Origin: Thalassiosira profunda
Lineage: Eukaryota > Bacillariophyta > Thalassiosirophyceae > Thalassiosirales > Thalassiosiraceae
Reading direction: 5' to 3'
Assembly (NCBI GenBank): GCA_036939355.1
Contig: JALLAP010000028.1
Coordinates: 1-32,841, forward strand
DNA: 32,841 nucleotides
Position numbers and translations under genes: made by a program. Shown here piece after piece: positions 6,455 through 30,702 of the stretch (positions within the stretch are counted from its first letter, which is position 1; every line of letters begins with the position of its first letter). The notes beneath the pieces were generated by a model. That model saw nothing but the letters and a program-made list of their open reading frames with translations, did no database searches and was not told the DNA's origin.

Positions 6455-7911
6455 TTAGAATACTCCTGTTTTGTCCAGCTCGTAGCAATATACCTCTTTC
6501 ATGCTCCGTGCAATGGCGCACGCTAGGCCAACTGGGACAGCATTTCCAACTTGCCGGTATTGCACACCGATGCTTCCACAAATTTCATACCACAAGGGAA
6601 ATGACTGTAGACACATAGCCTCCCGCACAGAAATAAGGCGATCTTCTTTGGGGTGAAACGGAGGGGTGGAACTTGCCCGGATAGTTCGAGCAAGACCGTA
6701 CGGCATTAGGCGGCAAGTCTTGTGCTGACCTGGCTTCAGTGAAGTTGTTTTCCTCCCCATATTTGTCATCCGCTCATCAGCATCAAATAATAGCGCCTCT
6801 TTAACTGTGCCATATTCGTTTGCAGTGCCTGGTCCATGCGTTTTTGGAGGGAACGACGGTTCCGGCATGGTATCCTTCCAAATGTACATGATGACCCGAG
6901 GGCGATCCTGGGGGTCTCCGTAGTCACACGCGTGCAAGACTGTCCACTTTGCGAGGTACCCCATCTTCATCACTTCCTTTGCAATTTGTTTCAAGTAAAA
7001 GATGTTATCTCGGCGCCAGATCCCAACCACATTCTCGAACACAGCAGTTGAACAAGATGTAAGGCGTATAAGATCAACGAGCAACAAGGACAACTCAGCT
7101 CGTTCTCTTCTGCCAGCGATTGGCCCTCTGTTGGCACCAGAAAAGTCTTGGCATGGCGAGCTAAATTCAATGTGATCAGTCCTTCCATACACATACTTCA
7201 ATTTGTCGTAATCCCTGATGAACTCCCTCACGTCGCCAGGATAAACTCGCAAGTCGTCACCAAAATTTTTCTTCAGTGTGCGGACAGCATTTTCATCCAG
7301 TTCTATTGCGGCTACAGTCTCGAAATCATTTGTATGAAACCCAAGTAGACTCCCACCTCTGCCCCAGCAAAGACCTCCAGCGCACGTATTTTACCCTGCG
7401 AGGGCTTTCTCCTTAGCATTCTCTTTGGCAGCCTCCGCTCGTACGAATACCCGCATGTATACCAGTTTCCCGGAGATTGGGGTTGGTAAATCATCCGAGG
7501 CATAATTTGGACCTCATCTGATTCTCCCTCGAACTTCGAAAGCGGCAACTCCTGAACATGGCCTTGAATCTGTACGTATCTGTCTGCCAAATGGTCTGCT
7601 ACATACTCTGAACCTTCGTCTTCGATGCCCAGGATCGAATTGGCGAATTTATCGATCAGGATGCATTTGGCAATATCATTTGAGTTGAAGCGTTGTATTC
7701 CGACAATGCGACGGACCCCACCAACATTCACCACGTAGCAGTGGCGCTTCCTGAACAAGGTGCCCTCATTTGCTACCTCATTTGGATCAAATGGGGCGGC
7801 TGCTTCGCGTGAAACAGGTTTGCTTGCAATTGATTCCCTGGTAGAGCGTTCAGACCGAAATCCCTGGCAGACCACGTCAATCTGCTTCGCATGATCTTCT
7901 CTATATGATGG
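6455..7911 (-). pseudogene. Catalytic part of a cytosine-5 DNA methyltransferase, interrupted upstream and frameshifted
   Basis: The frame is open from the element boundary at 7911. After about 180 residues of unknown N-terminal sequence come the C5-methyltransferase motifs: motif I (EVFAGA, about 7360-7380), motif II (VAAIELDENA), the catalytic PCQ loop (SSPCQDFSG), ENV (AVFENVVGI), the arginine motif DPQDRPRV, motif IX (RTIRASS...SVREAMCLQSFP) and motif X (QVGNAVPVGLA). This family methylates cytosine in DNA using SAM. The reading frame breaks inside motif I, near 7355-7362. Upstream reads FAGAEVGVYLGF and soon stops; the next frame gives GGSLLGFHTNDFETV, so two extra bases (or one lost) would explain it. 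No intron fits. There is no credible start codon in this part; its 5' end probably lies across the mobile element at 26,556-27,408. A sequencing error cannot be excluded. Confidence 0.85.
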
Positions 7912-7929
7912 GCCCTCGGGGCGCCCACC
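7912..7929 (+). repeat. Left 18-bp terminal inverted repeat
   Basis: GCCCTCGGGGCGCCCACC is the exact reverse complement of 26538-26555. Together with the adjoining bases it can also fold locally: TGGGC at 7909-7913 pairs with GCCCA at 7923-7927, giving a small GC-rich hairpin of the kind found near Helitron 3' ends. Confidence 0.6.
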
Positions 7930-8405
7930 CCAGAAGTTTTGAGGTTGCTTGGGAGAGGTGCGGCCTATGGCCTAGTCTTTATTTGGCAAAATGTAACCCA
8001 ATGTAACCTCTTCTCTACGTAGGAACTGGCTGAAATCGAATTCCTACGTATGTACGGTATTGGAGTCCCGTAGAGCTTGTGTAGAGTGTACCAGGGAGGC
8101 ATGTCTGACCTGTGTATGTAGACTTGTAACAGTTCCTCCGTAAAATGGGGTGGAAAAATCTCAATGTAAGATATTTTTCATAGGGTTCCCACGTAGAAAG
8201 TCCTGTAGAATGAAGGGGCAATAGACAGGGCTGTCACAGTGACATAAAACAGTCTAATTTAGACGGGTTATGAGCTCATGGCATTCATACGAGCCGGAGA
8301 AAATGCTGGTTTTTAAGGCGGGTTTGGCTGTGGCAAAGCTCGAGAAATGTGAAGGGTCTTTTAGTGGGTTCAGACAGACATATTTAGACTGGTCATTGTT
8401 TATGT
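7930..8405. other. Left (3') non-coding end of the element, with hairpins
   Basis: This stretch lies between the terminal repeat and the polyprotein stop codon and has no gene. It holds a 10-bp tandem repeat (aatgtaaccc / aatgtaacct, 7990-8009), a perfect 10-bp stem hairpin at 8016-8050, and at 8151-8180 a looser hairpin (GGAAAAAT ... ATTTTTCA) resembling the intronic repeats. The words ggagtcccg (near 8061) and ggttatgagc (near 8265) echo motifs of the same intronic family. It should also carry the 3' UTR. Confidence 0.5.
8016..8050. repeat. Hairpin with perfect 10-bp stem near the left end of the element
   Basis: TACGTAGGAA at 8016-8025 and its exact reverse complement TTCCTACGTA at 8041-8050 flank a 15-nt loop. 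It lies about 100 bp inside the proposed left (3') terminus. Helitrons often need a 3' hairpin for termination of rolling-circle transfer, though usually within about 10-20 bp of the end. It could also serve as a transcription end signal. Confidence 0.7.
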
Positions 8406-11400
8406 TCAGTTGAAGAATGATCGCTGAATGGTGTATTTGCAGCGTCGTCGTCTCCACGAGTCGTTCGGCCTCCGAAGCATCTTTATTATGTCACTTTCGA
8501 GTTCTTCTGAGGAGGAATAGGGACATTTGATGGCACGTGCCAAAGTGTTTTCCTCGATTTCTTTGAGGCGTTCGTCAGTGTATGTTTCCTGTCTTGTTTT
8601 GTCCGCCCTTTTCAATAGGAAATGTACCCATTTGTCTCTCTTGATGACTCCCTCCTTTTTGTCTCTGTCATCGGTTTTCTTGTTGTAGGTCGTGGAGCAC
8701 CATCTTACTCTGTTTTCGGACATATTGGATCCCTCAAAATATATAGCTGAATCGGTGGGGTGCTTGTTGGTTGCAGACATTGAGCCCATCGTTTTCCCTC
8801 TGCTGACAGCAACATAGAGAAGGCCAGGACTCCTGTTTTCGGCCATTATGCACCCCGGGTCAATGATCAAATTTTGAACAGTGTCCCATGTTTCCTTTCC
8901 GGCTTCAAAACCTTGAAACTTGTGGATGGTTGTAGCCCAAGCCGGCACCAATGGACAAAAAGTGACTGAGCAACAGGGTACCTTCCGACTGTACGCGCAT
9001 GGGGCTGTTTTCATTGGGATGGGGACGTGCTAACGAGGGTAGAAGGAGAAGGGAGTGAGATAATTGGCTGAACAAGATCGCAAATTGCACTGTTATGCAG
9101 GGCCACTCACAGTGGGGTGGTTGAGATCCCAGGGCTTGTATTCTGGAGGCAGTGCTAAATTGGGAAAGTCCACAACCACATATTCAGGAAGGTGTTTCCG
9201 TTGTTTGTCGTTCGGACCCTCCGGTCGTTTGAACTTCATCTCCACGACTTTACCCCTGGCCCCGTTGAACAACCCAATCTCGGGAATGAAATTGACACCA
9301 TCTATCGCAACTGTGGCATTCAAACAGAGATTTGTCTGTCTCGTGTATCTCACATAGTAGAAGTGGTCTCTGTTTGGAATGCAGTATTCTGGGTTGCCAT
9401 TCCGATTGCTCTCATAGTGACAATTCAAGCGTGCAATGGGAACATTGTCGTGATTGGATGTCTCCCTCAATTTTTTTCGGTTCTTGTCGATCATCGGTTT
9501 TCGTTCTGCAAATATCCACATGGTGCTGGGATCGTTATTCAAAGCATCTCTGAACTCCTGTGTATAGTTCCCAAGACTCAGGTTCGTGAGTGTGGTGGGG
9601 TCATCTAACTTGTCGTCATCGGCTGGCTCGCCAATTCGGAGCCTTGCAAGCAAGTCCTTGAACTCGTGTAAGTCTGAATCCACTCTCATGTTTTGAGTCA
9701 AATGGAACACATGTTCAACCATGTGGTCGGTGAATATAGTGTCCCCCCGATGACGGAGAAGCTGCCCGTCTTTGAGTTCCTTCGTTTCCTTTGTAATGCC
9801 TTTTTCCTTTCTTCTTGCAAATCCGTTGATGGCGCCTTGTCTTTGAATTGGTGGGAGCTGGTAATCGTCTCCGAACAGAAGGACTACAGGGAGTCCTCCC
9901 CATGTTTCGTCCGTGTTGTGGCCTCCAAATGCGCATTCACGAAGATTCTTTTCCGCGGCTGCAATTGTTTTGGAGTCAATCATGCTGCGCTCATCAATGA
10001 TCAATGCAAGCAGACTCTTCAGTTGTTGTCTCATGTTTTTTTTGACCTTTTCTGCGAGGGGAGTCCATTGTTGCTTGATTGGTATACCGAGAAGGCGGTG
10101 AAGTGTGCAGCCTTTGACGTTGAATGCGGCCCCCCCGGAAGGAGCGGCGACTTTCACAGAATTGTTGCACTGCGTGTATGAGGCAATGATGGACACGATG
10201 GTATGGATGATGAAGGATTTTCCTGTGCCTCCACAACCAAGTACTGTTGCTCGAAATGGTTTGTATTCCGGATCGTTGGTGAGGAATTTCACAATGGCAT
10301 CAACAGCTGCAAAAACGATGACTCGTTGCTCCTCGTTCAAGTCACCAATTTGTTCATTGAGAGGATAGACATCTCCGTTCCTTTTCTGTCTTGGTTGTAC
10401 TTCCAGTTTTTCCTCGGCACCATAGAATCGTTCTTGAAGGTTTGTAAGATAGGTTTCCCCATCGTCAGTGATGTGCCTTTCTTCTTGAAAAGTGGGTGTT
10501 GTCCAATCGTATTCACGACCAATGTTCACCCGTACTCCGTCCATCATGTCATCGCATTTCCAATCGTCTGTCTTATGTCCACAAAATTCGTGCTCTAGGA
10601 TCTCATCGAGCAAGTCGGGATCGATTGCATCTTCGTCTAACTCTTGATTGTCGACAATTCCTTGTTTCGCAATCAGTTCAATTTTTGCTTCTTGGGAGTA
10701 TTTTCGAGCAATGTCATATTGCAGTCGAACGGAAGTTGGAAATGCCCCAGGCTCGTCAAGCATTCTTAAGAAGGTCTGAATGGTCTTGTTTCGATCTTTG
10801 AATAGGTCGTCAAGCGGGTTGTTCTTGTGCCATGGTTTGTGAAGAAGGAGCATTCCCCGGGCAAAATAGAAGTCAGCTGGATACACTGGCTTGCAATTCA
10901 ATCCTCCCGCCATGAGTATCCTGTGTTTCTTATTGTCTTCGATGTGATCCCTGCAGTAAACGGCATAGAAGAATTCTTCGAGAGAATAGTGAATGTGCTC
11001 CCTAGCCCGTCGACGGTAAACAGAAATTAGATCTGTTTTCTTTGAGTTTTCGGATCTTGATTTCAGAGCCAAGCACTGACTCATGCTGATATGCGTGATG
11101 CTGTCAGAACAAATAGTCAGGTCGAGCTTATCAATTTCGTGACAAGCCTCTGACATTCCAACCATCCGCTGCGCAGTCAACGTGTTCAACGCCTTTTTTG
11201 TGAGGCAACTCAGTTCAGAGAGGTCATCCTGTTGTGCACTGTTGGATTTTGAACAGGTTATGAGCCCAATGAATGGAAAATTTTTGAAAGTCGAGATTTT
11301 TCCAATCGGGAGTCCGTTGCAATTGAAAAGGGTTATGGAAAAATTTTGATGTTTGAGTTTTTTCCAATCGAATTCACTCACCTTGCAATGAGGTCATGGA

Positions 11401-14400
11401 TAATGTTCTTCTCTTGTGTGTGGGTCTTGTTTTTCTTGCCCGTGTATGCGACAATGTATCGAACCACGTTGTCAATTTCGTTGATGTCAGGACAACTTGG
11501 GTCTGATTCGTAGAGTAGGAGTTTCACGTCGCAATTACCCCTCCACACTTTCAAAAACGTCCGACTATGTTGCACAACCCTCTTTGAACGTGTTCGTTTC
11601 ATTTGGAGGTGTCGAATACGTCTGTTGTCGGTCACTATTGCATGCGTTGATCGTCTCTCCCACCCTGGGGTGTCGCATGCTCCTCTTTCCGTTTCCATTC
11701 CGGCTAGCGATTTGCACTCTCTTGGACCCACATGCTTTGCTGATCGCAGGCAATAGTCGTTGCAATGATGGATCAAACAAGCCTGGGCAAGCCTTTTGCA
11801 GTCCAAATCCTTATCTTTGCACTCGCAATACCTCGTTTTGAGAGGGGAATCAATTTTGCTCTCACGATATTCTGGGTCGTCAGTGACGTCGACATCCGCA
11901 GTCATGTCCAGAACTCGCTCTGCATATTCTGCAACGACTTCGGCCTTTTCTGTTCCTGTCTTTGCTTTGTAATAATCTTGCAGATATGCCTGATCTTCAG
12001 CAATAGCCAATAAATGCAGGTGTATTTGGCCTCTGCCTGGAGCGAATTCGACTCGACCCCAGTAGTATTTGATGCCAAGTGCCTCCTTCACGACGTTTTC
12101 CATGAAGTGTTTGGCCCTCTTCATGAAGAATTCGTTGACATAGAGCGGCCATTTTTTTACCGTTTTTGCCATTGCGGTGAACCCTCTATCGCCTGTGTCA
12201 CGGAGAAGCTCAACCTGTTCCATGTTCCCTGCATTTGTTTCGAGATCAATCATCAGTCGCCGCAGATCTGGCCACCAATTTTCTGCGCATGAAAGAGTGA
12301 TGAAAAACGTAGGAGGACCGTTTCCTTCTGAGATGTGATGATTGATCCAGCCTTCCAGTTCCTTTGTCTTTCGTCTCCAAAAACCATCACTTCCTCTAAT
12401 CCCTTCTGAGAAGTACTGTAATTTGTTGATGAATGTATTGTCGCCTTTCCGGAGGTCCTGCTGAAGGTCTTCGATGGATGGAGGTTCTTTTCCAAAGAAG
12501 TGCTCACTCTTGAAGAAAAAATGACCTTTCGAGTTGTTGATATGCCGCTGTATAGTGTTGAAAACATAGAAAGTGAACATTTTGTCCTTCATGAAACGCC
12601 CATCACTGTATCGAAGCAGGTGACGCGCCCATTCCTGAATGGGGACCGTTCCCCGTTTTGAATCATATAGCCCCCCAATTCCGCCGGGAAAAAGCCAAGG
12701 AAAGGCATTGACAAAAATCTTTTTCGAAGTGTCATACTCCCTGACAGAAGAAAGTGAGTTTATTGGTGAGGTTGCATTAAACACCAAGAAGCGTCACTTA
12801 CGATACTGGTTCGGAACTGATTGGAGGAAAGTCGAGGATTTTGTCACATTGATTGGTCTCTTCGGCAGTGTGGATGAGTTCTTCGATGGGTCTTGTTGGT
12901 TCCCCTCTTGGAATTGTGACATTTTCGTTGGTGTGCATCGTTGACATTTCAAATCCTTCTTCCGTTTCAACGTCTCCGAGGTCTTTGTCATGGGCAGGAG
13001 ACACTGTTTCGACTCCCTCTTTCTGTTCCTCATCCATGACAAAAGTGGTGGAATCCTTGAGAATGTCAGTTTCGTCTCCTTCAAACCAAAGATTGTCCAT
13101 GTCAATTGTGATGTCCTTGTAACCGTCATGGTGCCTTTTCAGCCACTGCAATGCCCGCAGTACCCGATCCCTGTTTACCTTGTACTGTTTCGCACTGACT
13201 TGGGTACTTGTATTGCTTTTCAATTGGCGTATGAAGGTAACAACAGATGTTTTCATTCTTGGGAGGACATTGCAAGCTTCTGTGATGTCCTGTGGAAACG
13301 TGACGCAGTTGCCTTTTGTTGCAAAATTGCCTTTGCTCACGTGAAAAGAAGGAATGTAGGGTGCGTATCGTCGGATCAGCATCTTTTCTGGGACTGTCAA
13401 TTCGCTGAGTTCAGGAGGGATCTCGTAGTGAATGATGGGCTTCCCTTTTGAGTCCAGAATCAGCTCCCCGTTTTCGTCGTGCTCATACCATATTGGGTGC
13501 AGATTGTTGTAGAGATAGTGATCCGATCGAGGTAGGTTCTTGCATCGCTCACACGTAGCTTTCTGCTTTGCACCTGGAACAAATGTTTTGCTTTTCGTAT
13601 ATTCGGAAGAATTCGACACCATGACATTCTCTCGACAACATGGACATACCATGATGGAAAGGCATTTCATTGTGTGTTCCATCATGAGCATCTTTTCCTC
13701 CAATATGTGCTCTCGATTGGTTTTTTTGGTCCCACTTTCAGCCGGATCGAAACACTGTACCTTCCTTTTATCAGGGAGGTTCAACTCGACATATTTGGTG
13801 CTCTTGTAACTGGCAATGCTCCTGGTCACCCTGTTCTTGGCATCCTCGAAATCTTCAAGCGAGCTCACTTCCAACAACGCAGACATCCTATCCAACTTCC
13901 CATAATTCAGTAACTTCCTGTAATACGCATTGAGACTCTTCACTTGCTTGCGATACATTTTCGGGTCGTTCTTCAATGACTCGAAGAAGAACGGCAATTT
14001 CCATTTTTCATCCAAGTCTGCATTTGATTGGCGAATTCGAGCCTTTTTGTGATAAAATGGTGTCGTCGTGATACCCTTGCTGTTCTTGATCCTTTTGTGC
14101 TTCGCTGGTTTATTCTTCTTGACACTCAAATCTGGACAAAGCAATTGGGAATCTTTGAACACGCCAGTCAACAAATGGTAGTCTTTCACTGGTTTCCACT
14201 CGGGATTTGGATTGAGAATGAGTCTCCCTGAAGACTGCACTCGCAACTTGGTGATACATATCTCGTGGTTGTCAGTGAGATTGAATCCATTGCTGAGGAC
14301 AATCCTTGAAGGAACAGGTGTTCTCTCTGACGACAGGATTTCCAAAACTAGAGCACTTCCAAAATCTCGTTCGTTCACCGACCGGTAATAGATCAAGAAC

Positions 14401-16148
14401 CCGGGCCTCAAAGATAAGTTTGGCACAGACTCTTCATGATCCTCGTCACAAGGTTGACACAGTACAGGAGCGGATTCATCGAGTTCCATTGAATCCATTG
14501 TCACGACACAAGAGCGTTTGTCATCGCTTGGAAGTGCGTCGTATCTTGCCTTGATGTTTGTCAGTAATGTGAACGCGTCCTGTCTCAGCTGTAAGACATC
14601 GGGTGGTTTGATGTCAAACGCTGGGTTGTCTCTCAGTTTTGCTTTGAATTTGTCTGTCAAATCAGCTCGCGAAAAAGACATGTTTTTGACAACGACCAAA
14701 GCATGGAGGTATCGAAGGACGTAAAGGCCGCTGTCGTGGGTATTTTGTTGTCTTGCGACTAGTTTGAGACAAGATCAGGTCAGCAATTCAATCGTGAGAT
14801 TTCAATTGAGACAAAAAATACTCACCCTCGACACGATGCAGCGGAAGACTGTGACGGCTAAACGGAAGCCTCTGCTCAAAATCATCCGAAGATTCCAACT
14901 GCCACACCCGATTGAGCCAGTACCTGATCGATGTTGCAACCTGGTTTTGGTTGTGACTTGAATTGGAGCCAAGCGGGTCAAAATAGAGCAAATATGGATG
15001 GCATGACTTCGACCGTCTTGAGGTATTCGTGGCGATATATCCAGGATGAGCTACCACGAACAAAGACCAGTGATCGTTGGCATAGAATGGAAAGAGAAGC
15101 AATTTCTTCGACAACGCAGCAACGTTGTTTTGTTTTGCCCAATATTTCATTTCATTTGGATCTTCTCGACTCAACAGTTTGGGGAGGAAACTTGGATCAA
15201 ACAAGTACATGTCATCCCTTGAAGCAGTGATCCTGGAGAACAGGTTAGTCTCAAAACCAAATGTTTTGCGTGAATTTGCAAATTGACGCACCATGTCATT
15301 AGGATATTCATTGCCCCATCGTTGAGTGACTGCTGAAGGAGAAGGCAGCGAAAGACTGCACCATTCACTGGTTGCGATCTTCTCCGACTAAGGGCAATGC
15401 CAAACTGCCTGGCATCAAAATTTGGATCTAGTCCTTGGTCAAAGATTCCAACACGCCTTCCGCAATTGAATAACATCTCGTCATTGCAAGTGAAAGGAAA
15501 GTTGAACTTGTGTTCAAAAGGGTCGCTTCTGAGTAGGGAGTCCATCAATTCTTGGTGGCCCAAAAGAGACAACGACCGCATTAAATTCGTCCTCTCCATT
15601 TCTTGATCAATGATGCGAGCTTCCCTTTCCTTTTGTACTGTTTCAGTCATCAGTCGAAACGTTCTATAGACGTCATCAGATTGGATCAACTTTGAATGAT
15701 CAAAACAGGGATAAAAGGCTTTGAAGCACCCAAAATCAAATCGTATCCTGTGCGATTCAGCTGTTTTGTCAGTTGCTTGAAGAACAATGTCGCGCGTTCG
15801 ACTGCCTTGCCTTGTTGTGTCCAAACCATCTGGAGTGATAGCTAACGAGGTCAAGTTCCCTGGGTCGATGGCTGCTGTTGACGACTGATTAGTGACGAAC
15901 CGAGCCAAGTATACCCCATTTTCAATGTCGTATTGTTCGATTTGGACTATCTTCCCAGAAAGCGAAGGATTTTGGTGGTTGGTGATGACCGCTCGGCGAT
16001 GTGGGGCACGGTAAAAGTCGTTGTAAATTGAAATGGCAGACTCGTTGATTGCTGCGGCAACCTTGTACCTCTCCAAATCCTCGATAATGGAACATTGATG
16101 AGGCCCTTGGCTTGCTTTAGATGCAAAGCAACAATGCGTGATTAGCAT
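8406..16148 (-). CDS. Helitron-like polyprotein: Ulp1-like protease, DUF6570-like, Rep (HUH) and PIF1 helicase
   Basis: Six exons: 16148-15292, 15232-14826, 14758-12802, 12740-11382, 11238-9111 and 9029-8406. All five GT-AG junctions keep frame, giving 2,443 aa. Residues about 240-440 form an Ulp1/C48-like domain: LNDGAMNIL, HWSLF (His340), YFDPLG (Asp371) and QQNTHDSG, where Ser431 replaces the nucleophilic Cys. A Cys-rich DUF6570-like domain (CPCC about 793, to FPQD about 911) follows. Then comes the Helitron-like N-terminal and Rep domain (FPWLFPGG; FFITLSCAENWW about 1224; HUH motif GQIHLHLL about 1314; YIVAYTGK about 1504). The helicase has Walker A GCGGTGKS (about 1861), IIDE (about 1945), TIHKFQG and YVAVSRGKT (about 2271-2306). 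Rep nicks and rejoins DNA and the helicase unwinds it in rolling-circle transposition. The first intron has a weak GTGCGT donor but a good CTAAC branch site. The start is uncertain: the frame stays open to an acceptor at 16253. Confidence 0.85.
11239..11381 (-). repeat. Intron of the polyprotein gene holding two hairpin repeat units
   Basis: This 143-nt intron (GTGAGT...CAACAG) is about twice as long as the gene's other introns. Read on the minus strand it holds two copies of a unit of the form GATTGGAAAAA...TTTTTCC; the second copy is preceded by GGACTCCC. It also holds a 20-bp word (aacaggttatgagcccaatg on the + strand, near 11252-11271) that recurs exactly in the F-box gene intron near 18007-18026. 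Repeat units run in the sense direction of the host gene here. Confidence 0.75.
14759..14825 (-). other. Intron through the active-site region of the Ulp1-like domain
   Basis: A 67-nt intron (GTGAGT...AACTAG) splits the protease domain between the His/Asp half and the QQNTHDSG half. Splicing joins g from 14826 to tc at 14758-14757 (a Val codon) and places QQ and Ser431 in frame. Without this intron the domain would appear to stop short. An intron at this exact place is helpful for telling the spliced C48 domain from a truncated one. Confidence 0.8.
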
Positions 16149-16300
16149 TGCCTTGATGTACCAGACTAGAACCCGGAGCGTTTCACGCTCCTTCTTGATC
16201 TCCGTGCTCCAGAACTGCCTCTGTTGTGCTAATCTCTCTTCAACTGGAAATCCTGGAATAGTGGATGAAATGGGGTGTTAGCTCGCACAAGTTACGTGGG

Positions 16301-18227
16301 TTAAGGTCTCCTATTCGCCGATGTGTCTTTCCATTCGGGAAATTTTGACAGGGCAATAGGCGATGGTCGGTATTCCCGTCGATAGCGAGCAGAGAAGCCT
16401 TGACGAATTATCGTGTTGGATCGGTCGGAATAGACACCTTCGACCAGATCCATAGTAAGGATATCCCTGCTCCTTTTGTATACAGTTTTTGCAAGCTGCC
16501 GCGCTTCCGACGAGCTAAGGGCCCTTGGATTCTTTAGGAAATCACCAAGCACCTTGTGCAATGCCCTATTCAATGTCGGACAGCCAGTGTCATAGGTGAG
16601 CACCCAGGTGCCTTTCTTGTAGGGAATCTCCCGATAGAGAAGGAGAACTCTTGTCATGACCTCGCATTGAGTGGTGAAATACGTTGCTGGTCGGTTCACC
16701 CTCGATATCTCTTCGAGCCACTTCATGATGTTCCCTTTTGATGTTTCTTTGATGAGGGCGTCAATGCCTTTCATTGCGAGGTCAATCTTGTTGAACCTCT
16801 TTATATTTTCTTGGGCAATTGCATTCAGCTTCCTCTCTTGAACAACATGCTCAGCGTCTTCAATACAATCCTCATACGCTCTGATAATTGGGATATATGA
16901 TGTCGGTGATGACGTGTACGTCACGAGATGGTCAAGGAAATAGTCAATTCCCCTGGAGACCTGCTCCTTCCATTCGCGTCGTCCAAGAGAAAGATCGTCA
17001 ATCTTGTTGAGATATGAGACGAGATCTTGTAGAAGTGACGCTGTCATAATCGGACCAGTCGGGTTTCCGTATGAGTCAAGTGTCGGCTCTGACCACATGA
17101 GCTCAAAAGCATCCTTACTGTCAACGGGGTTTTGTGCCTCGTACATGTCACCAACTGGAATCAATGACCCTTCGTGGTCGTCAAGGTATCGAAGACCGTA
17201 CGGGTACGCCAAAACTCTTTCATGAGACCATATTTCGAAGAGTAACTGACGGTTGTCGACATAATACTGATTGAGTTCTTCGCCTCGGACCTTGTACACT
17301 GGCTTCGTCAATCTTGAATAAATCGCTCTATTCGGGGATGAAATGGAACGACGGATTCGACTGTGTTGAAGACAGGCCCAACATACCCTCGAAGGGAAGT
17401 GAGGTCGAACACGAGTCGTACGACATGTTGAGATTCCGGCCTCGACAAACTTGTCGTGTGATGCGCTATTCTCGTTGCACCATTCGCATTTCGTGCCTGT
17501 GCACAAAGACAACAATCTCATCGGCGACATTGAATGAATTGCCCTTTTCGCGTATTGACGGTAGACATTCTTCATCGATTGCATCTCATTTCCCCCGGAA
17601 TAGAGTAGACTCCGAACGACGAGATCTGTCGTAATAAGAGCCAATAGGAGATGATTGCAGCTTGCTGTGCTCAATAACTCTTTGGGTGGGAGGAAGCTCA
17701 TGACCAAGGATGAAATATCAGGATCGAATCCAAATACCTGTTTCTTCTGCTTGGTCTTCGTGCGCTTTCGTAGCTCCTTTTCTTGTTCGAAAATCGCTAT
17801 TGCTTCTGACGCCTCTTTTCCTCGAAGCGCAGTCTCTGAAAATGTCATTCCTTCGGCCCTGTATCGATCCAGGATGTGATCTGGAGGAAGCGTACCGGGA
17901 CCTTTCGTCTGAAATCAAGAAAAAATGATTGAGAACAGATTTTGAAAACAGTTCCAATAGAAATGGACTCCCGGATGGAAAAATCTCGAACTTCCTCTTT
18001 TTTCCAAACAGGTTATGAGCCCAATGTCCTGTTTCACATGCCAGGACTCCCGTTTGGAAAAAAATGATTCTTCGATATTTTTCCAGAGTTCCGTCAGACG
18101 AGGACTCCCGATTGGAAAAAATCTCAACTTCGATTTTTTTCCGGGGTGTCCCAATAGACGTGGACTCCCGTTTGGGAAAATCTCCGAGTTCGATTTTTTC
18201 CCAACAATGTGTGCTTACCTTTGCCAT
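16301..18227 (-). CDS. F-box-like protein encoded upstream of the Helitron polyprotein
   Basis: Two exons: 18227-18219 (codes only for M-A-K; ATG in good context gaaATGg) and 17908-16301, joined across a 310-nt intron (GTAAGC...TTTCAG); 538 aa. Residues about 60-105 read as an F-box-like motif (FDPDISSLVMSFLPPKELLS, then CNHLLLAL), which in the family recruits a substrate to an SCF ubiquitin ligase. A Cys cluster follows (CEWC, CWAC, about 150-195) that could bind zinc. The remaining 300 aa are unrecognised. The stop lies only about 150 bp upstream of the polyprotein's first ATG, on the same strand. In the next frame, a donor at 16295 and the acceptor at 16253 would fuse both proteins, so a frameshifted single polyprotein is possible. 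Confidence 0.65.
17909..18218 (+). repeat. Intron of the F-box-like gene filled with four hairpin repeat units
   Basis: Four units on the + strand start with GGAAAAA-type words near 17977, 18056, 18114 and 18174. Each has the plan GGACTCCCG-(A/T)TTGGAAAAAT-(10-15 nt)-TTTTTCC, and the terminal A/T runs pair as a stem-loop. Here the units are antisense to the gene that contains them, opposite to the other two introns. The 20-bp word shared with the polyprotein intron lies at about 18007-18026. Confidence 0.8.
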
Positions 18228-18448
18228 TTCTCCGTCGAATCTCTCACTGTTTGCATTCTTACCTGAACAAGCAACAAAGAAGTGTAAGATATCGGCCCAA
18301 AATTCTAGTAACGTTATGTTACAGGAAAAAACAACCGACGTTTCAAGAACAGATACAAATGAACGACGACGACGAAGACGTGACGTATAGACGTGGAAAC
18401 CCTTGGACGTGACGAGCAACGCTGGATTGCATGCATTGGGAGGGATGA

Positions 18449-20422
18449 TTACTCATCGTAAGGCTTGTGTTCGATGTCAGCCCACTGCATGATAGGCTTG
18501 GGCCAATTCTTGAAGACACGATCGAGGTTGACTTCGTCCCAGCCATTGACTCCAATGCCCTGGAGGAATTCCTTGATCTGATTGTCCATCAAGAACCGGT
18601 CCAGGTGGCAATCGAGGACCACAGTGCGCTTCCTCGCGAAGACGTCCACCAAAGTCTGATGCAGGTAGGCTTCCAACTTGTCGTCTTCGGGATACTGCTT
18701 GTGGAAGTAGTCGACGATCCCGGGCGAATTCTCCTTCATGTAGGTGAGGCAGGTGGAACCAGGCTGAGCAGCCGGATGGTAGAGACGCTCGATCTTCTTG
18801 AAAGCGGACAGGAGCATCTGTTGGAACATTGGTTCCTCCGAAACCTTGTAGGTGAAGACGAACATAATCTTGTTGATGGTGCGTCCGACACTGTTGCCCT
18901 TTCCACTGTTGCGACGCTTGTACTCGTTGTCGCCGTAAGACACCTTGCGAATGGGGACCTCGGTGAAAGAAGCCTGCCACTCAGGCAACTGGTACTTCAG
19001 GTCGTTCGCCATGAGTTCGAACATAACGGATAGATGACCAGCGTGGAGGAACCAGGCCTCCCTAGCCGTCTCAAACACGATGGCATGGCTGATCTTGGCC
19101 TCGTTGGTATGGGGGAAGGGTGGAGAGACGAAGTACGTGTTGCCTGACTTGCTGCCAGTCCCTTGCTGCTTGACCTTGCTCTGCAACGCGTTTGCCTTTG
19201 GCGTCCACACCGCAATCACGTCCTCGTCGTCGTTGTCCATATTGAATATGTTCTCACCTTTAATCTTGGTGGTCTCGCCCTGCTGCTCGGCTGCAGAAGC
19301 CTTTGCGGGAGTCGTCGTCGATGGAGGAGTGAAGCCTTCGGCGAACGCACCTTTGAGGGGAGTAGATGGGTTCGTCTGATTGACGGTGGACTCGACCTCC
19401 ATCGCTTTGGCCAGGTCTCGATCTTCCTTGTGGCGCTGAATGAGCTTCCATCCAACAAGGTGATCAGTGGTCCCCCCAATGACTTGGGTCAATGCCACCA
19501 ACTCGTGCCCTTTGTGGAGATCGAACACTTCATCTTCGTCTGAATCCTTGCGACGAACAGAGACAGTATCGATCTTGTGCTCGGCGAACAGGCTCATGAT
19601 GATGTTCATCCCCGATGACTTCGTGTAGTCCTTGTCGGCGGCAGGCTTCTTGAGAGCAACCTTGGGGATGTGGGGGTTCCTGTATGCGATCGGTCGAAGT
19701 TAGAAACGGTTGCTCACATCAGACAGTATTACAAGAGCTACTCACGCAGGCTGGGTCATCTCCTCAAGCTCCACGACCTCAGCGTTCGGCTTCTCGCTCG
19801 CTTGCATCTTCTTCAGGGCCTTCAGGACCATCGTCGTCAGCTTGCTGCGCATGGCAGGAGCGTTGTTGGGGCGCTCGGCACTATCCTTGAAGCAATGCAT
19901 AGCTACAGTCAGTTCGTCCTTGGTGAGCTTCTTGATGTTCTTGGCAACGAGTTCTTCAAGATCGACAGGGGTAGCGTCGCCCTCGCAGTTGTAGAGGTGC
20001 ATGTACAACGCCCTCTGCTGCTCGAGGTTCTCCCAGCGGATGTCCTTGATCGCGGGAACCGCGTCGGCGTCGGCGTCGGAGTCGACGTCTCCCTCGGACT
20101 CGGAGGTGAGATAGTCCCCGAGATTGCACTGGGTTTCGGGCAACCCGGAGCGCGCATCGGCCAGGGACGCACGCTTGAGGGACACGATGTCGCTTGTATC
20201 ATCGGCGGTGCGCTTGCTGCCGGCGGAGTAGGCCGGGGACGAGAGGGTGGAGATCTTGCTGGTCGCCGCGGTCTCGGGCGTCTCGGCGCCGAACGAAGTG
20301 CGGTAGGCAGACGACTTCGACGGCGACGTGGCCGAGGCCGTGGCCGTGGCCGTGGCGGCGTTAGCCGCTTCCGCGAGGGACGTGAGGTCACCGTCGGCGG
20401 GGGGAGGGACGAAGAAGTTCAT
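18449..20422 (-). CDS. Unknown 635-aa protein carried by the element
   Basis: Two exons, 20422-19746 and 19679-18449, joined across a 66-nt GTGAGT...TACAG intron with the frame kept. The N-terminal 120 aa are low-complexity (Ala/Thr/Ser, then an acidic patch SESEGDVDSDADAD). Residues about 130-225 look helical. A Pro/Thr-rich linker (about 300-345) precedes a 250-aa globular C-terminal region with segments ETAREAWFLHAGHLSVMFEL, INKIMFVFTYKVSEEPMFQQ and LDCHLDRFLMDNQIKEFL. No domain was recognised. Its stop is 221 bp upstream of the F-box-like start on the same strand, and it is divergent from the 1,536-aa gene. The pairing suggests the two act together, but no function can be given. Confidence 0.75.
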
Positions 20423-20885
20423 GATGCGGCGGGGGGTGATGGAGGTAGGTTGTTGATGAGGTTGGATGATTTGTGAGCTGCAAGGTCTGAGCGTGGAATC
20501 GGCCGTTTGGCTGCGCCATCTGCCGTTTGGCAACGCCATCTGCTGGCTTCTCTTACCTTCTGTCGGCTTCTCTGTCGAAATTTCAGTTGGCCAATTCCTA
20601 CGTACATGTGCGTTGAAGATGAGCCAACTTGCACAACCGAACTTCCAAATTTGGATTTTCAAGGCTTCTCACGGGGAAATGTATGAAGTCCTTCGTGTAT
20701 GGAAGGGCTCATGATGGGTGTCTCGGAAACAATCAAACTTTTGAATCTTCTTACCTATACCAGGTCCTCTGCACGTGGGCTGATTCGCTGCTTCTCAGCT
20801 GCTTCTCAGGTAATATTCAACGGGCGGGGCTCATCAAAGTGACAGGACCAAAGTTCGGCCACCTTCTCCTATTGAATCCTATGTA
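20423..20885. promoter_or_regulatory. Divergent promoter between the two unknown element genes
   Basis: The 463 bp separate two divergent start codons. They hold a 20-bp tandem duplication (20502-20521 and 20522-20541, gccgtttggc followed by ngcgccatct-type sequence, two mismatches) and an 11-bp tandem repeat gctgcttctca (20787-20808). Immediately before the + strand start is a minimal upstream ORF, ATG-TAA, overlapping the start codon as ATGTAATG (20881-20888), which could lower or condition translation of the large protein. Confidence 0.5.
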
Positions 20886-23800
20886 ATGTACGACAGAAAC
20901 GGGGCTCAACGATCGAACACGCGTCTTACTAGTTCCTTCGTTACAAAATATCGCCAACAGAAAGCCAAAATTTTGCTGCCACAAGTTGAGCCTCAACGGA
21001 AACGCATGAAATTTCGACAAGCCAAAACGCAGAGCGCAACCCTCCTCCCGCAACTCGAAGCTCTCATAAAACAGGACGACGATCACCCCCGAACGAGTGC
21101 AACGATCATGACGCCGACCATTTCCAACGACAGCCCTACCACGGGCGGGACCGCCACCGCTCCCACCGCCGGCGGCAGCCCTGCCACGGGCGGGAGCGGG
21201 GACGCCGCCGCCGCGCCCGCCTCCGCGCCCGCCGACGAGAACAAGGCCGCACCAGCCGCCGACGGGCCGGGGAAGAACAAGACCGATGCCGAGGCCGAGG
21301 CCGCTGCCAGCTCGCCCGCTGACGGCGCGACCGGCGACGGCGCGACCGCCGGCGACGACGCAACCGGCGACGACGCAACGGGCACGCCCGCGGAGAGCAA
21401 AGAGGAAGAAAGCGTCGAAGCCGACGCCGACGCAGGCAATGAGGTCGCGAGCAGCACTACTTCGCCGCCCACCGCCTCTAAGAAGAACAGGAAGAAGAAG
21501 GGGGAAAGGTGAGTTCGATCTGGCAGGTGTAACGATTGTCCTGGTTTCGATCTGCTGCTGACCCCTGCATGTCGCTTCTTACTACTCAGCTCCAAACCAG
21601 CTCTGTCGAGGACAGAGCATGTGCTCACCCACTACGTCCTCCCGACAAACACCGAGGTCAAAGGCCTCCACCCATCACAGATTGGTAATCTATTTCCCCA
21701 AGACGCAGCAGGTCATCTCCTTTCAGTCGAAGGCTTAAACGCAAGCAGCATACGCGCTCCTCTTCTGTCTAAAGCCGTCAATGGGATGCTAAACAACCCA
21801 ATGAAGATCAACCTCTTTGTGCCATTGGGGCATACATTCGATAGCGATTGTCCAAAGCTGTTCTGCTTCGAAACGCGAGTGAGTACAAACGATGTTCCAA
21901 ATGAAGTGGCCTGGCACCTCTGACAACTAATGTCTCTATTCTATTTCCAGCTCAACGAAACGAAGGACCTCGACAAGGAGAACAACAAGCTCGACCTTCG
22001 GCCTGTGTTCACCCAGGAGAAGGGTGATACGATTACCGTGGACGCTTTTCATGGGACAACAGCGTTGAGCAAAGACTTCAAGAAAGTCATAGCCTTAGAC
22101 CTCCTCGAACGTGCCAATAGGACCACCACGGCAGATTACTTTGGGTTCAAAGAGACGTGGGAGGCCATCGAGAAATCCTTCGACGACAAGACGCCTTTGT
22201 ACGAGATCTGCTCCAGTTTCTACAAGGCTCGTTGGAAGTTCGCTAGCGAGGAAAATCGGACCTCAAGAATCTTTGTAGCGGAAGAAGGACAACACCGCGC
22301 GTTGGGCTGGATCCTCGTCTACTGCGCGAGCAAACTCACCATCAACCAGCCGATGATCGTCCCAGGCAGCATGGACGAAGCTTTCCTTCGTCATGAAGGC
22401 CTTGCCCAGCAAGATGGATTCAAGAATCAGGCCCTGACCATTACGACAGTGACTGGCCTCGACCTCAAGGCGATCATTGAGCAAGAACTCCGTCGGCCTG
22501 TTTCCGAAGAGACGTACCATCATCTGAAAACGCCCATCAGGGCTTCCATCCGCGTTCTCAAGCCCACTGAGGACATCCAAGTTGACAAGAGTGCCGAGAC
22601 GCTTGTTAGTCTGCTTCGACTGGAGAGCACTGCGAGCAAGAATGACAAGAGACAGAGCAGCAGGCTCAGCTGTACCGACACGCTCTCCCATGAAACTCAG
22701 CGAATCGATAGGAGAATTAAGGAATCGGGCAGGGCGTTGGTCAGCGAGCCAGAGCTCACAGACGCGGTGTTCACTATTCTTAATCCCAAGAAATGGGACT
22801 TCAGCAAGCTTGACGAGAACTCCGATGACAAGGCCTCTTATTTGAAGGCCAGTCCTGACCCGGCCTTCATGCAGCTCAAGGAAATGGACGAGTACATCGA
22901 GAATCCTTTCGACGACGCAAGCTACGTGAAGCTTGCGACACAGCTCGATGCGGTAGCTAACTTTCGGTCGAAGAGCAGCGAGTCTCCTGACGAACGTTGG
23001 ACCGAAGAAAAGGAGCCCCACTTCAATTCGAATCGAATGCCACCTCCCTTCATGAACACGTATGATGGAATGAAGATTGACGCGCCGCCCAAGAAAATTG
23101 CAGAGGCCAAAATGAACACCCAGATGGTGAACCATATCCTCTTTCTCCCCCTTGCGATGGCAGCTACCCACAACGAAAATACGGATGATGAGGCGAGAAT
23201 CAGTACCACCAAGTACATGCTCAAGTACCATCTGTATCCCAGCTTGACCCAGCTCCCACAACTTCAGAAACCCTACACGATGTTCTACAGCAAAGAATCG
23301 AGCAAAACCTTCTTTGACGACAATATGACGGACACCACGACGGCAATGTTCTTCTCGCTGATGATGAATGCTGTGCTGACTTTCGATAGTAGCCTCAACC
23401 GCTTCAATAGGATGTGCGAGATTTTGAGCAAGGACGAGGCTCAGTTTGGGACAAAGACGTTCAAGAAAAGACTTGGTGAGACTGTCATGACTCTCCTTTG
23501 GCTCGTTGAACCGAGGACAGCAAACTCACACATATTTCACTCTTTCGCCTGATTGGAAAAATATGAACGCTCGACATTTTTCCGGGGCCCGATTACGACG
23601 GACTCCCAATTGGAAAAATCCTGAAATGCAATATTTTTCCGTGTCCCCAACTCTCGGACTCCCAATTGGAAAAATCTTGAAATGCAATTTATTTCCGGTG
23701 CCGTCAAACCTGGACTCCCATTTGGAAAAAATCTTACACTTTGAAAAATTTCCAACTGCAACTGCACTCATCACCCCGAACCTCAACCAAAAGTTTGTCA

Positions 23801-25967
23801 TTTCGCGGAGCTGCTTCGTATGGAGAAGAACCTACTTCAAACCCTCAAAAGGGTCCAGAGGCAAGGGCCAGACCTGAAATTTTCTCTCCAGCTCACCAAC
23901 AGACTCAGGATGGTGGTCTTGTACGAAGCAGTCAAGGTCTACGAACGCTACGGCTTGAGGCCAACGCTGAACACTTACTCCTGCATGAAACACTGGCCTG
24001 TGATGGGTGACGTATACAAGAACGCCGTCAGTACGGCGAATGGCACGAACAAGGCCAAGGACTGGAAAGCCAAGCTGAAATCCTACCTCGATGGCTACCA
24101 ATCCGTCGGAAATGAATTTAGCACTAGATCAAGGATCAATGTCGTTCACAACTGCGACGACGTGATTCGCTACCTGCTGATAATGTTCAACGCCAAAATG
24201 GCCCAGATGAGTAAGGAGGAACTCATCCACATGAAAGCTGGAACGTTCGTCGGATTCACCAGGACTGAGGTCGAATTCGAGAATCCTGGGGATCCGGAGG
24301 ACCCGGGATCTTACGGGGCGCGCACCTCCGACTTTCTTCCGTCACAGGGTGATTCCGGAGGTCCCAACAACATCAGCTTTGTCGAGTTTGCAGGCTCATT
24401 TCTGGATTGCAAATACACTAAGACCCTCGAAACAGCCGACCAGGAACACATCAAGTTCATCAATGACACTATTGGAGCCGGAGAATGGAAATTTGAGGAT
24501 CTCGGAGCTATGGATGATGAACGAGTGACTACGAAGAACCCTAGTACGCCAACAAGCGGTACGAACGCGATTGGCAAAACCGACAGAACGATAGCGGAAA
24601 TATACGGACCAGTTGGAAGCGAAGAGGAAGAGGAGGAAGATGCAGGAGGGGATGGGACTTTCTCAATGACAGAGGACGATCAAGACATCGAGCCAAAGGA
24701 TACAGCGCAGGCCGAGTCGCACACCGAACAACCAAAGGTGAGCGAAGAAAAAGAGGAAGACAGCGAGTGGACTGAAGTGACAAGCAAACGCACGAGGCCA
24801 GACGAACGTGAGGTGATACGCGTACCATCGGTAACCGAAGAAGGACAGTGGACCGAAGTGACCTTCATGGGAACCTTCGACAGGAAGGCAACCTGGAGGT
24901 GCGCGGATGGAAATGAACGCTCTGTTCCTTGGTCGATGATGCAGTGGCAACGTCGCCAGTCAGGGGAGAAGCCTGCTGCGACGGCTCCAGCTGCGAATGA
25001 CAATATTGCAGCCAGTGCTCCGTTCGCCTTTTCAATGGCCGCCCTGACGTCTTTTCGGTCGCCGGCGCCGGCAACAGATCTTGATGCGATCCTCAAGGAC
25101 AAACTCCAACAGGCAGTTCAGGATATCTTCTTGCCCGAGAACTACAAAAAAAAGAGAGTACAGGCGGCCATCACCGCGTTGAACGGCGTAAACGACACCG
25201 CGCACTTGACACACGTGACCAAGCAAGTGATGATGACGCAGTTCGCGAAAGCGCCCAACATGAGCTATCTCGCGGGCCTGAACAAAGCGTATGGGACAGA
25301 TCCAATGAACGATGGAAACACGACCGTTGACAAGACCACCGTAAAGAACGTGTTCGAGCGTTCGCACTACCCCTCTCTCCATTGGAAGGACGAAATGACG
25401 GATGCCCACGAACAGGCACTGCCCAAGAAAAATACCACGAAGGAGATGATGGCGGGCACCATGCGCGACAAGTGGATACTGATGACCCTCACCGGCAAAA
25501 ACCTCATAAAGGGGATGACAAACCTGTACAAGGATGTCAGCGGCGAGGGAAATCACACAAAGGAAGCGAAACACTTGAAGAACTTCTTTGAGACCATTAT
25601 GCCGCACGCAGGATGGGCGGTCATAGACGACACCTTCACCACTCCCCAACCGAAAACAGAACATGTCATCCTGTTGGAAGAGACGACTCCTGCCCACTCC
25701 GACGATGAACAAGCATCCTCGAAGGACATCCAAGACCTCGCTACGGCCAACAAAAACAACATGAAAACGGATGAGACACCGGACGGAGATGGAGACGAGT
25801 CCGAAGATGACGGTGATGAAACCAGCTCCCTCCACGACGCCAGCACCAAGAAAAGAAAGCGAGAGGACGGCAAGGACGCGCACGGCGCTGAACCAGTAGC
25901 GAAAACAAGCAAAGTCGACTCGGCCATTGAAGAGCCTGAAGAGGCAGATAACGATCTCGAGGTATGA
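20886..25967 (+). CDS. Unknown 1,536-aa protein carried by the element
   Basis: Four exons: 20886-21508, 21590-21878, 21951-23475 and 23794-25967. The three GT-AG introns of 81, 72 and 318 nt all keep frame. The N-terminus is basic, followed by a Pro/Ala/Thr/Gly/Asp low-complexity region (about 75-205) and a KKNRKKKGER basic cluster. Residues about 210-820 and 820-1020 are globular and unrecognised. An acidic stretch (GSEEEEEEDAGGD) and two E(W)TEV repeats lie near 1080-1170, with a second helical region at about 1230-1430. The C-terminus is acidic, with a likely nuclear signal KKRKRED (about 1499). GDSGGP near 998 resembles a trypsin motif, but no other protease motif is present. The start is uncertain; later ATGs (21009, 21108) are possible. 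The gene is divergent from the 635-aa gene, suggesting joint function. Confidence 0.7.
23476..23793 (+). repeat. Intron of the 1,536-aa gene filled with four 56-bp hairpin repeat units
   Basis: GGAAAAAT-type words occur at 23555, 23612, 23668 and 23724, a spacing of 57, 56 and 56 bp. Units read GGACTCCCAATTGGAAAAAT, then about 13 nt, then ATTTTTCC; for example 23612-23619 pairs perfectly with 23633-23640. The units are in the sense direction. The intron's length (318 nt) nearly equals that of the F-box gene intron (310 nt). Confidence 0.85.
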
Positions 25968-25984
25968 AAACAAATGGGAACAAA

Positions 25985-26160
25985 GAGAGGACATCGTGTC
26001 CAAGTGCAAAGAAAAGGAATGAAAAGAAAAGAAGAGAGGACTGGAGTCCAGGTGCAACCAGTCCTCAAGTGATGGGAACGAAGAGAGGACATCGTGTCCA
26101 AGTGCAAAGAAAACGAATCAAAAGAAAAGAAGAGAGGACAACGTGAGTCCAAGTGCAACC
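25985..26160 (+). repeat. Four 49-bp tandem repeats with palindromic cores, 3' of the large gene
   Basis: Small palindromes start at 25989, 26038, 26087 and 26136, exactly 49 bp apart: GGACATCGTGTCC, GGACTGGAGTCC, GGACATCGTGTCC and GGACAACGTGAGTCC. Each is preceded by agaga and followed by a(a/g)GTGCAA. Units 1 and 3 are most alike, so a 98-bp unit was probably duplicated. They start 21 bp after the stop codon and may act in the 3' UTR or as subterminal binding sites of the element. Confidence 0.85.
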
Positions 26161-26537
26161 AACGAAATGAACCGCAACGTCCACCGGGGGGGCAACGCAG
26201 TATAGGTACTCGTAAGAAATATAAACCAGAGAATGGTAAACTTGTGCTTCGCCATGCTGCACGCCAACCTGCCCAGCTGTACGTTCCATAGTGCTCCTTC
26301 TGAATGGCAAACTATCCTCTGGGGCAAAACGCATGTAGGAATTAGGATCCGAACTACACGGGACAAGAATTTTTCCCAAACTTCAAGAAAATTCCAGGCA
26401 ACACTTCACTGCGAAGCAGCTCATATAAGGAATCCTTACTAATCTACCTACTTCCTTGTTGACACATTTTGTTACACTGCGAAGCAGCTCATATAAGGAA
26501 TCTAATTCCAACACCTCTTCAAACAGTGCATCGTTAC
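26161..26537. other. Right (5') non-coding end of the element
   Basis: No gene is supported here. Besides the pair of 28-bp direct repeats there is a weak hairpin-like segment near 26370-26396 (aatttttcccaaa...gaaaattcc) resembling the intronic repeats. The promoter or transfer-start functions of the element's 5' side could lie here. Confidence 0.4.
26407..26502 (+). repeat. Two 28-bp direct repeats near the right end of the element
   Basis: 26407-26434 and 26475-26502 are identical over 28 bp, 68 bp apart. Each begins with CACTGCGAAGCAG, which contains the small hairpin CTGC-gaa-GCAG, followed by ctcatataaggaatc. They lie 53-148 bp inside the right terminal inverted repeat, a position suited to Rep binding. 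Confidence 0.85.
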
Positions 26538-26555
26538 GGTGGGCGCCCCGAGGGC
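26538..26555 (-). repeat. Right 18-bp terminal inverted repeat
   Basis: GGTGGGCGCCCCGAGGGC is the exact reverse complement of 7912-7929. Outer flanks (aagag to the right, gatgg to the left) show no duplication. The GGGCGCCC core is itself palindromic, which raises the chance of coincidence somewhat, but position and frame arguments favour a true element end. Confidence 0.6.
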
Positions 26556-27408
26556 AAGAGCAAGTCCCGGACAGGACGGACACTTTCTTGCTCGTTCACA
26601 GATGTTACTCCCGTACTTCACCACTGTCGTCGTCTTCGTCGCCCTCTTCATCCTCGCACTCACTATCACTGCTAGTGCTGTCAGCGTGTTGACCCCCATC
26701 TGCGGATATCTCATCAGAATTAACTAACGCGTCCTTGTTGCTCATTGGGTCCTTTTCACCACCAATGTTAGACCCACCACCAGATAGTGAGACGTCAATT
26801 GCATCACACTCTGAAGCCAAACCACGAACACAATCTGACCCAGAACCATTACACACGTGATCCGCCTGTTCTATAGCGGGCCTAACTGTACCCTGGCAAA
26901 TCTTTTTCGTTGAGGGGCTTTGACTATCGTCCGTTTGATCAGTTTGATCGCGACGGCGACGCAAGGCTTTCAGTTCGTCTTCCAGGGGCCGGATTTGATT
27001 GTCATAGTATTGGCAAATCACTGGCGTCAAAAAGGCAGAGGTTAGCTGTGATGGTGGAATAGACTCGGTGCTTACGACATTTTTTCGCACCCTCAGTTTT
27101 GTCGACGTCGCATGATCGATTGGGGCACGATAGCAAGAATGCATATTCTTCGAGCTCTTTGTTCTTCTCCCTCTTCAGCTCATCGATGCTTCTGATCAGC
27201 TTCGATCGCTGCCGATCCATGTCGAATAGTAGCTGAGTTGGTTAGCTCTCGCTGCGCGCGGAGGCTGATGAGAGGGCCGGCTAATACTACGATACCTATC
27301 TACCGGCCACCTTGAACTGCTCCAAATCTGCTGATGAAAATATCTTAGCGAGTTCCCAAGTAAAGACTCACGTGAAACAATACCAAGTTCTATCGCTAAT
27401 CGTGTCAT
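26556..27408 (-). CDS. Coiled-coil, Cys-rich N-terminal part of the interrupted methyltransferase gene
   Basis: Proposed exons: 27408-27372, 27330-27311, 27232-27076, 27020-26664 and 26623-26556, with GT-AG introns of 41, 78, 55 and 40 nt, all in frame. The ATG at 27406-27408 opens a continuous helix (DLEQFKLLFDMDRQRSKLIR), then Cys pairs (CPNRSC; KKCLICQYY), a second helical stretch, a Ser/Asp/Glu-rich linker and, after the last intron, a CERARKCPSC cluster running into the element boundary on a codon edge. The next codon at 7911 continues in the methyltransferase frame. If the 40-nt intron is not used, the frame instead ends at 26605 after an acidic tail, giving a free-standing protein of about 210 aa. 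Function by itself is unknown; zinc binding is likely. Confidence 0.6.
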
Positions 27409-27531
27409 CTCTGATCTCGGCGGATTCGTCCGCCGTCCGCCCAGGCAGCCCAGTTCCTCTCCCCCACCCCACTGTGAATTGCAATTAGTTGTGCACCTCC
27501 ATCATCGATTGATCCCGCCTCCCTCTCCAGC
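27409..27531. promoter_or_regulatory. Short divergent promoter of the methyltransferase and ubiquitin-like/helicase genes
   Basis: Only 123 bp separate the two start codons. The stretch is C-rich with cggcggattcgtccgccg, a near-palindrome, at about 27419-27436. The two genes are likely to be expressed together, or were before the methyltransferase gene was interrupted. Confidence 0.45.
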
Positions 27532-30500: not shown

Positions 30501-30702
30501 GGGTTGCATCGATATTGAGGACGTGGAGGCTCATTTGCGCTCGCTGTGCGACAATGGTTATATCGAGGAGAAGGAGAAAGACGGGGATTTGCAATGGTAC
30601 CAAGTTCACAGGAAGATTCGTACGGGATCTGGATCAAGCGATGACGAAGAAGTTGCGCCCTCTGCAAGGGTCAGCCCCGAGAAAAGGCAGAGGGTTGACT
30701 GA
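27532..30702 (+). CDS. Ubiquitin-like domain fused to a DEAD-type SF2 helicase
   Basis: The proposed model is 27532-27548, 27595-28996 and 29038-30702 (1,027 aa). It uses two short introns (46 and 41 nt) with weak GTT donors; without them the frame breaks near 27590 and 29035. Residues 1-75 match ubiquitin in plan (EFITVHKSHSVEKLKSIV, LDDHSMALGEYGVKDGDV) and end in CRIRGG, then a Gly/Pro linker. A helical domain occurs twice (about 95-180 and 290-390; shared pattern LxDxTxAxLxxxIxWxxxN). The helicase has GPPQSEKT (Walker A with Glu for Gly), IVIVDEAD, LVTATPDS and QNLCRLCGY. The tail has a winged-helix-like segment (TAVDVADEMVDQNRGCIDIE) and ends in a basic KRQRVD. It probably acts on nucleic acid in the nucleus, with weakened ATP binding. 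If the introns are wrong it is a frameshifted pseudogene. Confidence 0.65.

Follow-up and report, generated by a model that had tools for sequence, protein, structure and literature searches.

A window of 32,841 nucleotides (the whole stretch of DNA analysed here, contig JALLAP010000028.1 of the Thalassiosira profunda assembly GCA_036939355.1) very probably contains a Helitron2-type transposon, with a HUH Rep, a PIF1 helicase and asymmetric repeats, inserted in exon 2 of a host C5-cytosine methyltransferase gene. By comparison with a second copy in the same genome, the whole element (plus strand, 5′ end on the left and 3′ end on the right by its terminal anatomy) is placed at 7909-26607 (18,699 bp), with 7908-26606 as an equivalent parse, because one A is common to both ends. 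A first-pass annotation had described a Helitron-like element splitting a C5 DNA methyltransferase gene, and this is upheld by relatives that carry both halves as one protein; the ends it had given the element, at a pair of 18-bp inverted repeats, are not.

The interrupted methyltransferase gene

The host gene lies on the minus strand. Its 5′ part (26608-27220) starts at 27220 and consists of exon 1 (27220-27076), a putative 55-nt intron (27075-27021) and the start of exon 2, giving 186 codons down to 26608 once the intron is removed; the next codon is a TAA at 26607-26605, formed by the last bases of the element. The 3′ part (6455-7908) comprises a linker region with no Pfam match and the C5-methyltransferase domain (PF00145), and the first in-frame Met of this catalytic half stands 156 codons into its open frame. 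With 7909-26607 taken out, GEVRE runs on into SYREDHAK in frame, and the versions of the join with no A or with two are closed. The best PDB sequence matches of the host protein are named DNA (cytosine-5)-methyltransferase 1, and it shares PF00145 with Dnmt1/chromomethylase-like C5-methyltransferases; unlike these, it has an N-terminal coiled coil and acidic region, which in this analysis only metagenomic relatives share.

A search with the joined protein yielded 19 proteins at E <=0.001 among 8,000 candidates sharing most words. The alignment took in P0121-P0137 (17 of these) and P0019 from another search, with P0138 and P0139 (E 2e-7 and 1e-6) left out. In all 18 metagenomic relatives aligned, a single chain covers both sides of the junction, with no insertion opened there. 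Upstream of the junction they carry between 14 residues (P0019, which is truncated at its start) and 320. Beside the junction several rows show a gap of one residue, and eight positions downstream of it two residues present in most relatives are missing from the window protein. Composition alone could align the acidic stretch that precedes the junction, so a separate test was made of the first 80 residues, and against a profile of the N-termini of eight relatives they scored 25.1 bits, compared to 10.6 for the best of 1,998 scored shuffles (2,000 made). BLASTP of these 80 residues gave nothing significant, its one match (E 1.5, to P0121) lying outside the N-terminus of that protein. On the alignment and the N-terminal profile, the two flanks are read as one minus-strand gene, as the first-pass annotation had proposed.

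A second lesion lies at motif I, where open reading frames (ORFs) 7312-7971 and 6455-7390 overlap in a frameshift, and the methyltransferase looks doubly broken, by insertion and by frameshift. The gene could then have been a pseudogene before the element arrived, with a neutral insertion into dead sequence. This concerns timing only and is compatible with the Helitron2-type insertion, and we regard it as possible, if somewhat unlikely. The 18 aligned relatives all read through the site at which the window is shifted, but a single genome does not reveal the order of the two events, both halves are otherwise open (over 74% of its length, the C-terminal ORF shares 74% identity with P0001) and the frameshift may itself be a sequencing error.

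Ends of the element

The exact 18-bp inverted repeats at 7912-7929 and 26538-26555, first seen in the initial reading, were recovered by a repeat search with no mismatch between the arms. When the window was dinucleotide-shuffled 200 times, an 18-bp inverted pair with a spacing of at least 1 kb arose in one shuffle, and the window itself has one further such pair (19 nt, 11297/18102), inside the element. The assembly (21.8 Mb, 1,366 contigs) contains two exact copies of the 18-bp repeat, both in the window. At <=3 mismatches the pattern has 103 matches assembly-wide versus 74 for the reversed control; examination of these covered the window and C259 pairs, and the contigs with two 3-mismatch matches include C912, C242 and C171, which were left out of it.

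Probes of 300 bases from the left end and 500 bases across the right end, searched against the assembly, each had a single additional match, and the two matches are no more than 750 bp apart on contig C259. This second copy (C259:1596-2339, 744 bp) aligns with ~300 bp of the left end at 79% identity and with ~140 bp of the right end at 83%, and its middle has no blastn match to the window. A search for other copies ending at the same repeats had been suggested as a check; the C259 copy so found has homology that extends outside them. On the right the homology continues 52 bp beyond the repeat, to 26606/26607, and includes a 39-nt core (26558-26596) that is identical (39/39) in C259 and occurs nowhere else in the assembly at <=3 mismatches. 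On the left it continues 3-4 bp beyond the repeat, to 7909/7908. The element termini accordingly read TGGGCC (left) and GATGTTA (right), and we consider the right end well fixed and the left end a little less well supported.

Position 5 of the repeat is T in both window arms and A in both C259 arms, and the C259 arms mismatch each other at the last repeat position. Since both copies keep an inverted repeat despite the changed position 5, the repeats look maintained, and the single two-sided change is a hint, not proof, that pairing of the ends matters.

Beyond the left end come five mostly differing bases and then, at the same offset in both copies, TCTCTA, 5 bp outside the end (window 7898-7903; L035 2345-2350 in the second copy). 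This motif may be a target feature, chance, or part of the element, whose left end would then be at 7898. A left end at 7909 is favoured because it leaves the host frame open, whereas with 7898 the frame is open for only one of five right ends tried, and that one disagrees with the C259 comparison. Among the four joins that the C259 comparison permits, the two open ones are identical in sequence. The A shared by the element ends could belong to element or target, and the open frame favours no duplication.

Could the shared 52 bp instead be a common target, both copies having inserted in related DNA? Only two copies are known, and TCTCTA stands at the same offset in both left flanks, but the C259 flanks have no further blastn match to the window, the 52 bp holds a predicted hairpin where Helitron2-like 3′ ends carry one, and these bases, if left in the host gene, would place a stop in its frame; we therefore hold this to be highly improbable. 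It is harder still to credit that the flanks are two separate genes, one for a small coiled-coil protein and one for a methyltransferase, with the element between. The assembly has no empty allele, and the acidic stretch before the junction is of low complexity and could align by composition; set against this, every aligned relative has both sides in one chain, and the first 80 residues outscore all of the scored shuffles on the relatives' N-terminal profile. Least credible is an element that, in the manner of a cut-and-paste transposon with terminal inverted repeats, ends exactly at its 18-bp repeats (7912-26555), since these repeats, exact though they are, leave outside them on the right 52 bp shared with C259, its identical core included, 7911/26556 shows no target-site duplication, the stop of the true N-terminal frame (26605-26607) lies beyond the 26555 boundary, and the coding genes are of rolling-circle type.

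The homology outside the repeats and the real N-terminal frame stopping at 26605-26607 led us to reject the boundary at the 18-bp repeats, and the homology 52 bp past the right repeat and the lack of a visible duplication to reject a cut-and-paste transposon. Deleting 7912-26555 had been said to restore a single open frame. After that deletion, though, the TAA stays in the true N-terminal frame, and what reads open across 26556/7911 is another frame, which has stops farther upstream.

The RepHel gene and the class of the transposon

The interval between the repeats had been called element-like, and its domains bear this out. A gene for fused Rep and helicase (RepHel) occupies 8406-15387 on the minus strand in five putative exons encoding a C48 (Ulp1-like) protease domain, DUF6570, Helitron_like_N (Rep) and a PIF1 helicase. 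In the minus-strand ORFs, Pfam matches Helitron_like_N (PF14214) at 87.1 bits, PIF1 (PF05970) at 72 bits and DUF6570, and HLH and YxxxY motifs are visible in the Rep ORF. The putative GT-AG introns are 14825-14759, 12801-12741, 11381-11101 (with one of several possible acceptors) and 9110-9030. The first two fuse three ORFs into 1,292 residues with no stop, and the other two (281 and 81 nt) extend the frame through to the helicase ORFs, with one stop. Intron 14825-14759 is supported by the Peptidase_C48 score, which rises from 16.3 bits (below cut-off) in the unspliced sequence to 46.9 once it is spliced out. From the C48 domain onward, the RepHel gene appears to have no certain lesion. Within that domain (window 14825-14700), a serine (DSG) stands where the usual catalytic motif has its cysteine, and the protease may be inactive or altered because of this replacement. 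Upstream, ORFs 15171-16277 and 16301-17914 (15171-17914, minus strand) are perhaps further RepHel exons or a separate gene; the latter has an F-box match below cut-off.

The inverted repeats are placed asymmetrically. The 5′ repeat (7912-7929, plus strand) lies 3 bp from the 5′ end (4 in the equivalent parse), and the 3′ repeat (26538-26555, minus strand) lies 52 bp from the 3′ end and is followed by a terminal segment (26556-26607, plus strand) with a predicted hairpin and the C259-conserved core. A left terminal hairpin is predicted at 7909-7927, from the first base and containing the 5′ repeat, and the same stem is found in C259. By this terminal layout, the 5′ end would be the left one and the RepHel gene antisense to the element. 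Compared with shuffles, the left hairpin is no more stable (z 0.43 and 0.20); the right-end hairpin gives z -1.03 and -1.15 for two window segments and -1.89 for C259, where 7 of 200 shuffles are as stable. Exact 28-nt repeats near the 3′ end (26407-26434 and 26475-26502) contain CTGC-GAA-GCAG, a tiny possible hairpin that is partly kept in C259 while its surroundings differ.

The element looks like a new example of a Helitron2-type rolling-circle transposon, a placement made by end anatomy and the lack of an endonuclease match rather than from a RepHel tree. According to Bao and Jurka (2013; PMC3627910), the 5′ repeat of Helitron2 lies in a hairpin at 0-2 bp from the end and the 3′ repeat at 20-30 bp, followed by a terminal hairpin, and in some members RepHel is reversed. 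The T. profunda element resembles these in its Rep/helicase, its asymmetric inverted repeats (one close to the 5′ end in a predicted hairpin, the other before a predicted 3′ hairpin), its 5′ T, its reversed RepHel and its short non-autonomous copy (744 bp, compared to 657 and 673 bp there). It differs in having repeats of 18 bp (8-15 bp there), longer distances from repeat to end, and a length of 18.7 kb that includes accessory ORFs and a C48 protease domain, and in lacking a TTTT flank. Its repeat distances are near those of FoHeli1 of Fusarium oxysporum (in FoHeli1/2, 38-51 bp separate the 3′ repeat from the end, and in FoHeli1 51 bp; PMC5148889) and of mite Helentron-type (HINE) elements (2-4 and 38-60 bp; PMC4067079). 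FoHeli1-5 also have asymmetric repeats, with reversed ORFs in FoHeli4 and 5 and hairpins at both ends in FoHeli1/2, but they differ in size (about 5-11 kb), terminal sequences and insertion preference (PMC5148889). The element is unlike mite Helentron-type elements in having no endonuclease or OTU domain match and no T-rich flanks (PMC4067079).

Other classes fit less well. An endonuclease domain fused to RepHel, the mark of Helentrons, had no Pfam match in the 20 ORFs scanned. The Helitron1 signature (5′ TC, 3′ CTRR, one 3′ hairpin, A/T insertion) disagrees with the TGGGCC and GATGTTA ends, and a left end at 7898 would start with TC, yet still leave a 3′ end without CTRR.

Several observations weigh against the reading of a Helitron2-type insertion in the methyltransferase gene. 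The copies found number two, which leaves a one-base ambiguity at the ends and no established target rule, and TCTCTA, common to both, would allow a left end at 7898. Frame preservation taken alone is weak evidence, as 23 of 110 joins near the element ends leave the frame open. An uninterrupted allele was sought with a 400-nt query of the joined flanks, which matched only its own two halves in the window when searched against the assembly. Misassembly is possible, as is a false motif I frameshift from a sequencing or assembly error. As to class, the 3-4 and 52 bp distances fall outside the published 0-2 and 20-30 bp, the predicted terminal hairpins of both copies are not clearly stabler than shuffles except at the C259 right end, and the flanking T runs reported for Helitron2/Helentron-type groups are not seen at this insertion.

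Accessory content, copies and consequences

The right part of the element has five ORFs, none with a Pfam family above cut-off. Two are on the minus strand (416 residues, 18449-19699, and 308 residues, 19742-20668; together 18449-20668) and three on the plus strand (232 residues, 20814-21512, of doubtful coding status; 542 residues, 21924-23552; 740 residues, 23745-25967). The 542-residue ORF was searched against a database of 5.8 billion proteins, with scoring of the 7,998 candidates sharing most words, and has two relatives: P0140 (93% identity over 74% of the query) and P0141 (43% over 91%). P0140 is metagenomic and hints at a close copy of the element in another sample. The predicted structure of this ORF, made from three sequences, has a mean predicted local distance difference test score (pLDDT) of only 36.5. 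A PDB sequence search with the Rep ORF gave no match up to E 1, PHROGs assigned a family to none of six ORFs, viral contigs yielded no confirmed relatives of Rep, the helicase or P0121, and neither Rfam at gathering cut-off nor a tRNA scan found anything.

Searches of ORFs against the assembly were made by six-frame exon, and copy counts are therefore lower bounds. On this basis no further full-length copies were found, the Rep, 740-, 542- and 416-residue ORFs matching only themselves. The helicase ORF matched itself and, weakly, five other places. The one of these five that was examined, at the edge of contig C280 (L065 18-155), is a short fragment of another Helitron-type helicase, with no other match to the window within its first 6 kb.

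A unit of ~57 bp (GGACTCCC..TTGGAAAAAT...TTTTTCC) recurs at window 11274-11328, 17952-18203 and 23543-23731, apparently non-coding, one copy being inverted and inside a putative intron. At <=2 mismatches, 8 of its 13 genome matches are in the element and the rest on C292, C316, C13, C94 and C1065; neither blastn nor tblastx at 1e-3 matches C292, C316 or C1065 to the window. The ends of C292 (L054) and C316 (L055) are 80-92% alike over long stretches and are perhaps paralogous or haplotype copies. Just after the 740-residue ORF, a 68-nt sequence stands twice in direct orientation within 25974-26139, 98 nt apart, the copies being 96% alike. Beside the split gene, plus-strand ORFs (27338-30702) include a ubiquitin-like domain (28.4 bits) and match AAA/DEAD families weakly, below cut-off.

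If the element moves as a rolling-circle transposon, Rep would nick at its left (5′) end, the helicase would peel off one strand, replication would terminate at the inner repeat and right-end hairpin, and the copy would join a new site without target duplication. As it stands, the host gene would yield at most a 186-residue N-terminal stub, and the catalytic half, which also carries the frameshift, is separated from its start codon. The claim that the insertion disables the very system that usually silences transposons is too strong: the gene is indeed split, but it has a second lesion of its own, which may be the earlier one, and the assembly has other C5-methyltransferase matches, namely a 488-residue open frame on C167 (38% identity) and partial matches on C1307 (two), C133 and C99. 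That a giant Helitron2 with an almost orphan gene set knocked out one host methyltransferase gene, which then decayed, and so removed part of the host machinery that could silence the element while RepHel is still open, we consider unlikely. A literature search for a Helitron in a methyltransferase gene, or for Ulp1/C48 with a Helitron, gave no case in the titles and abstract openings of the papers listed, which is not proof of absence.

The split host gene serves as a ruler by which, in a small eukaryote genome, a large Helitron2-type element has its ends placed near base level; these ends indicate that, in this group, inverted repeats can be exact without marking the borders. If methylation or element activity has changed in this line, the split gene would be a test case for the role of the enzyme in transposon control.

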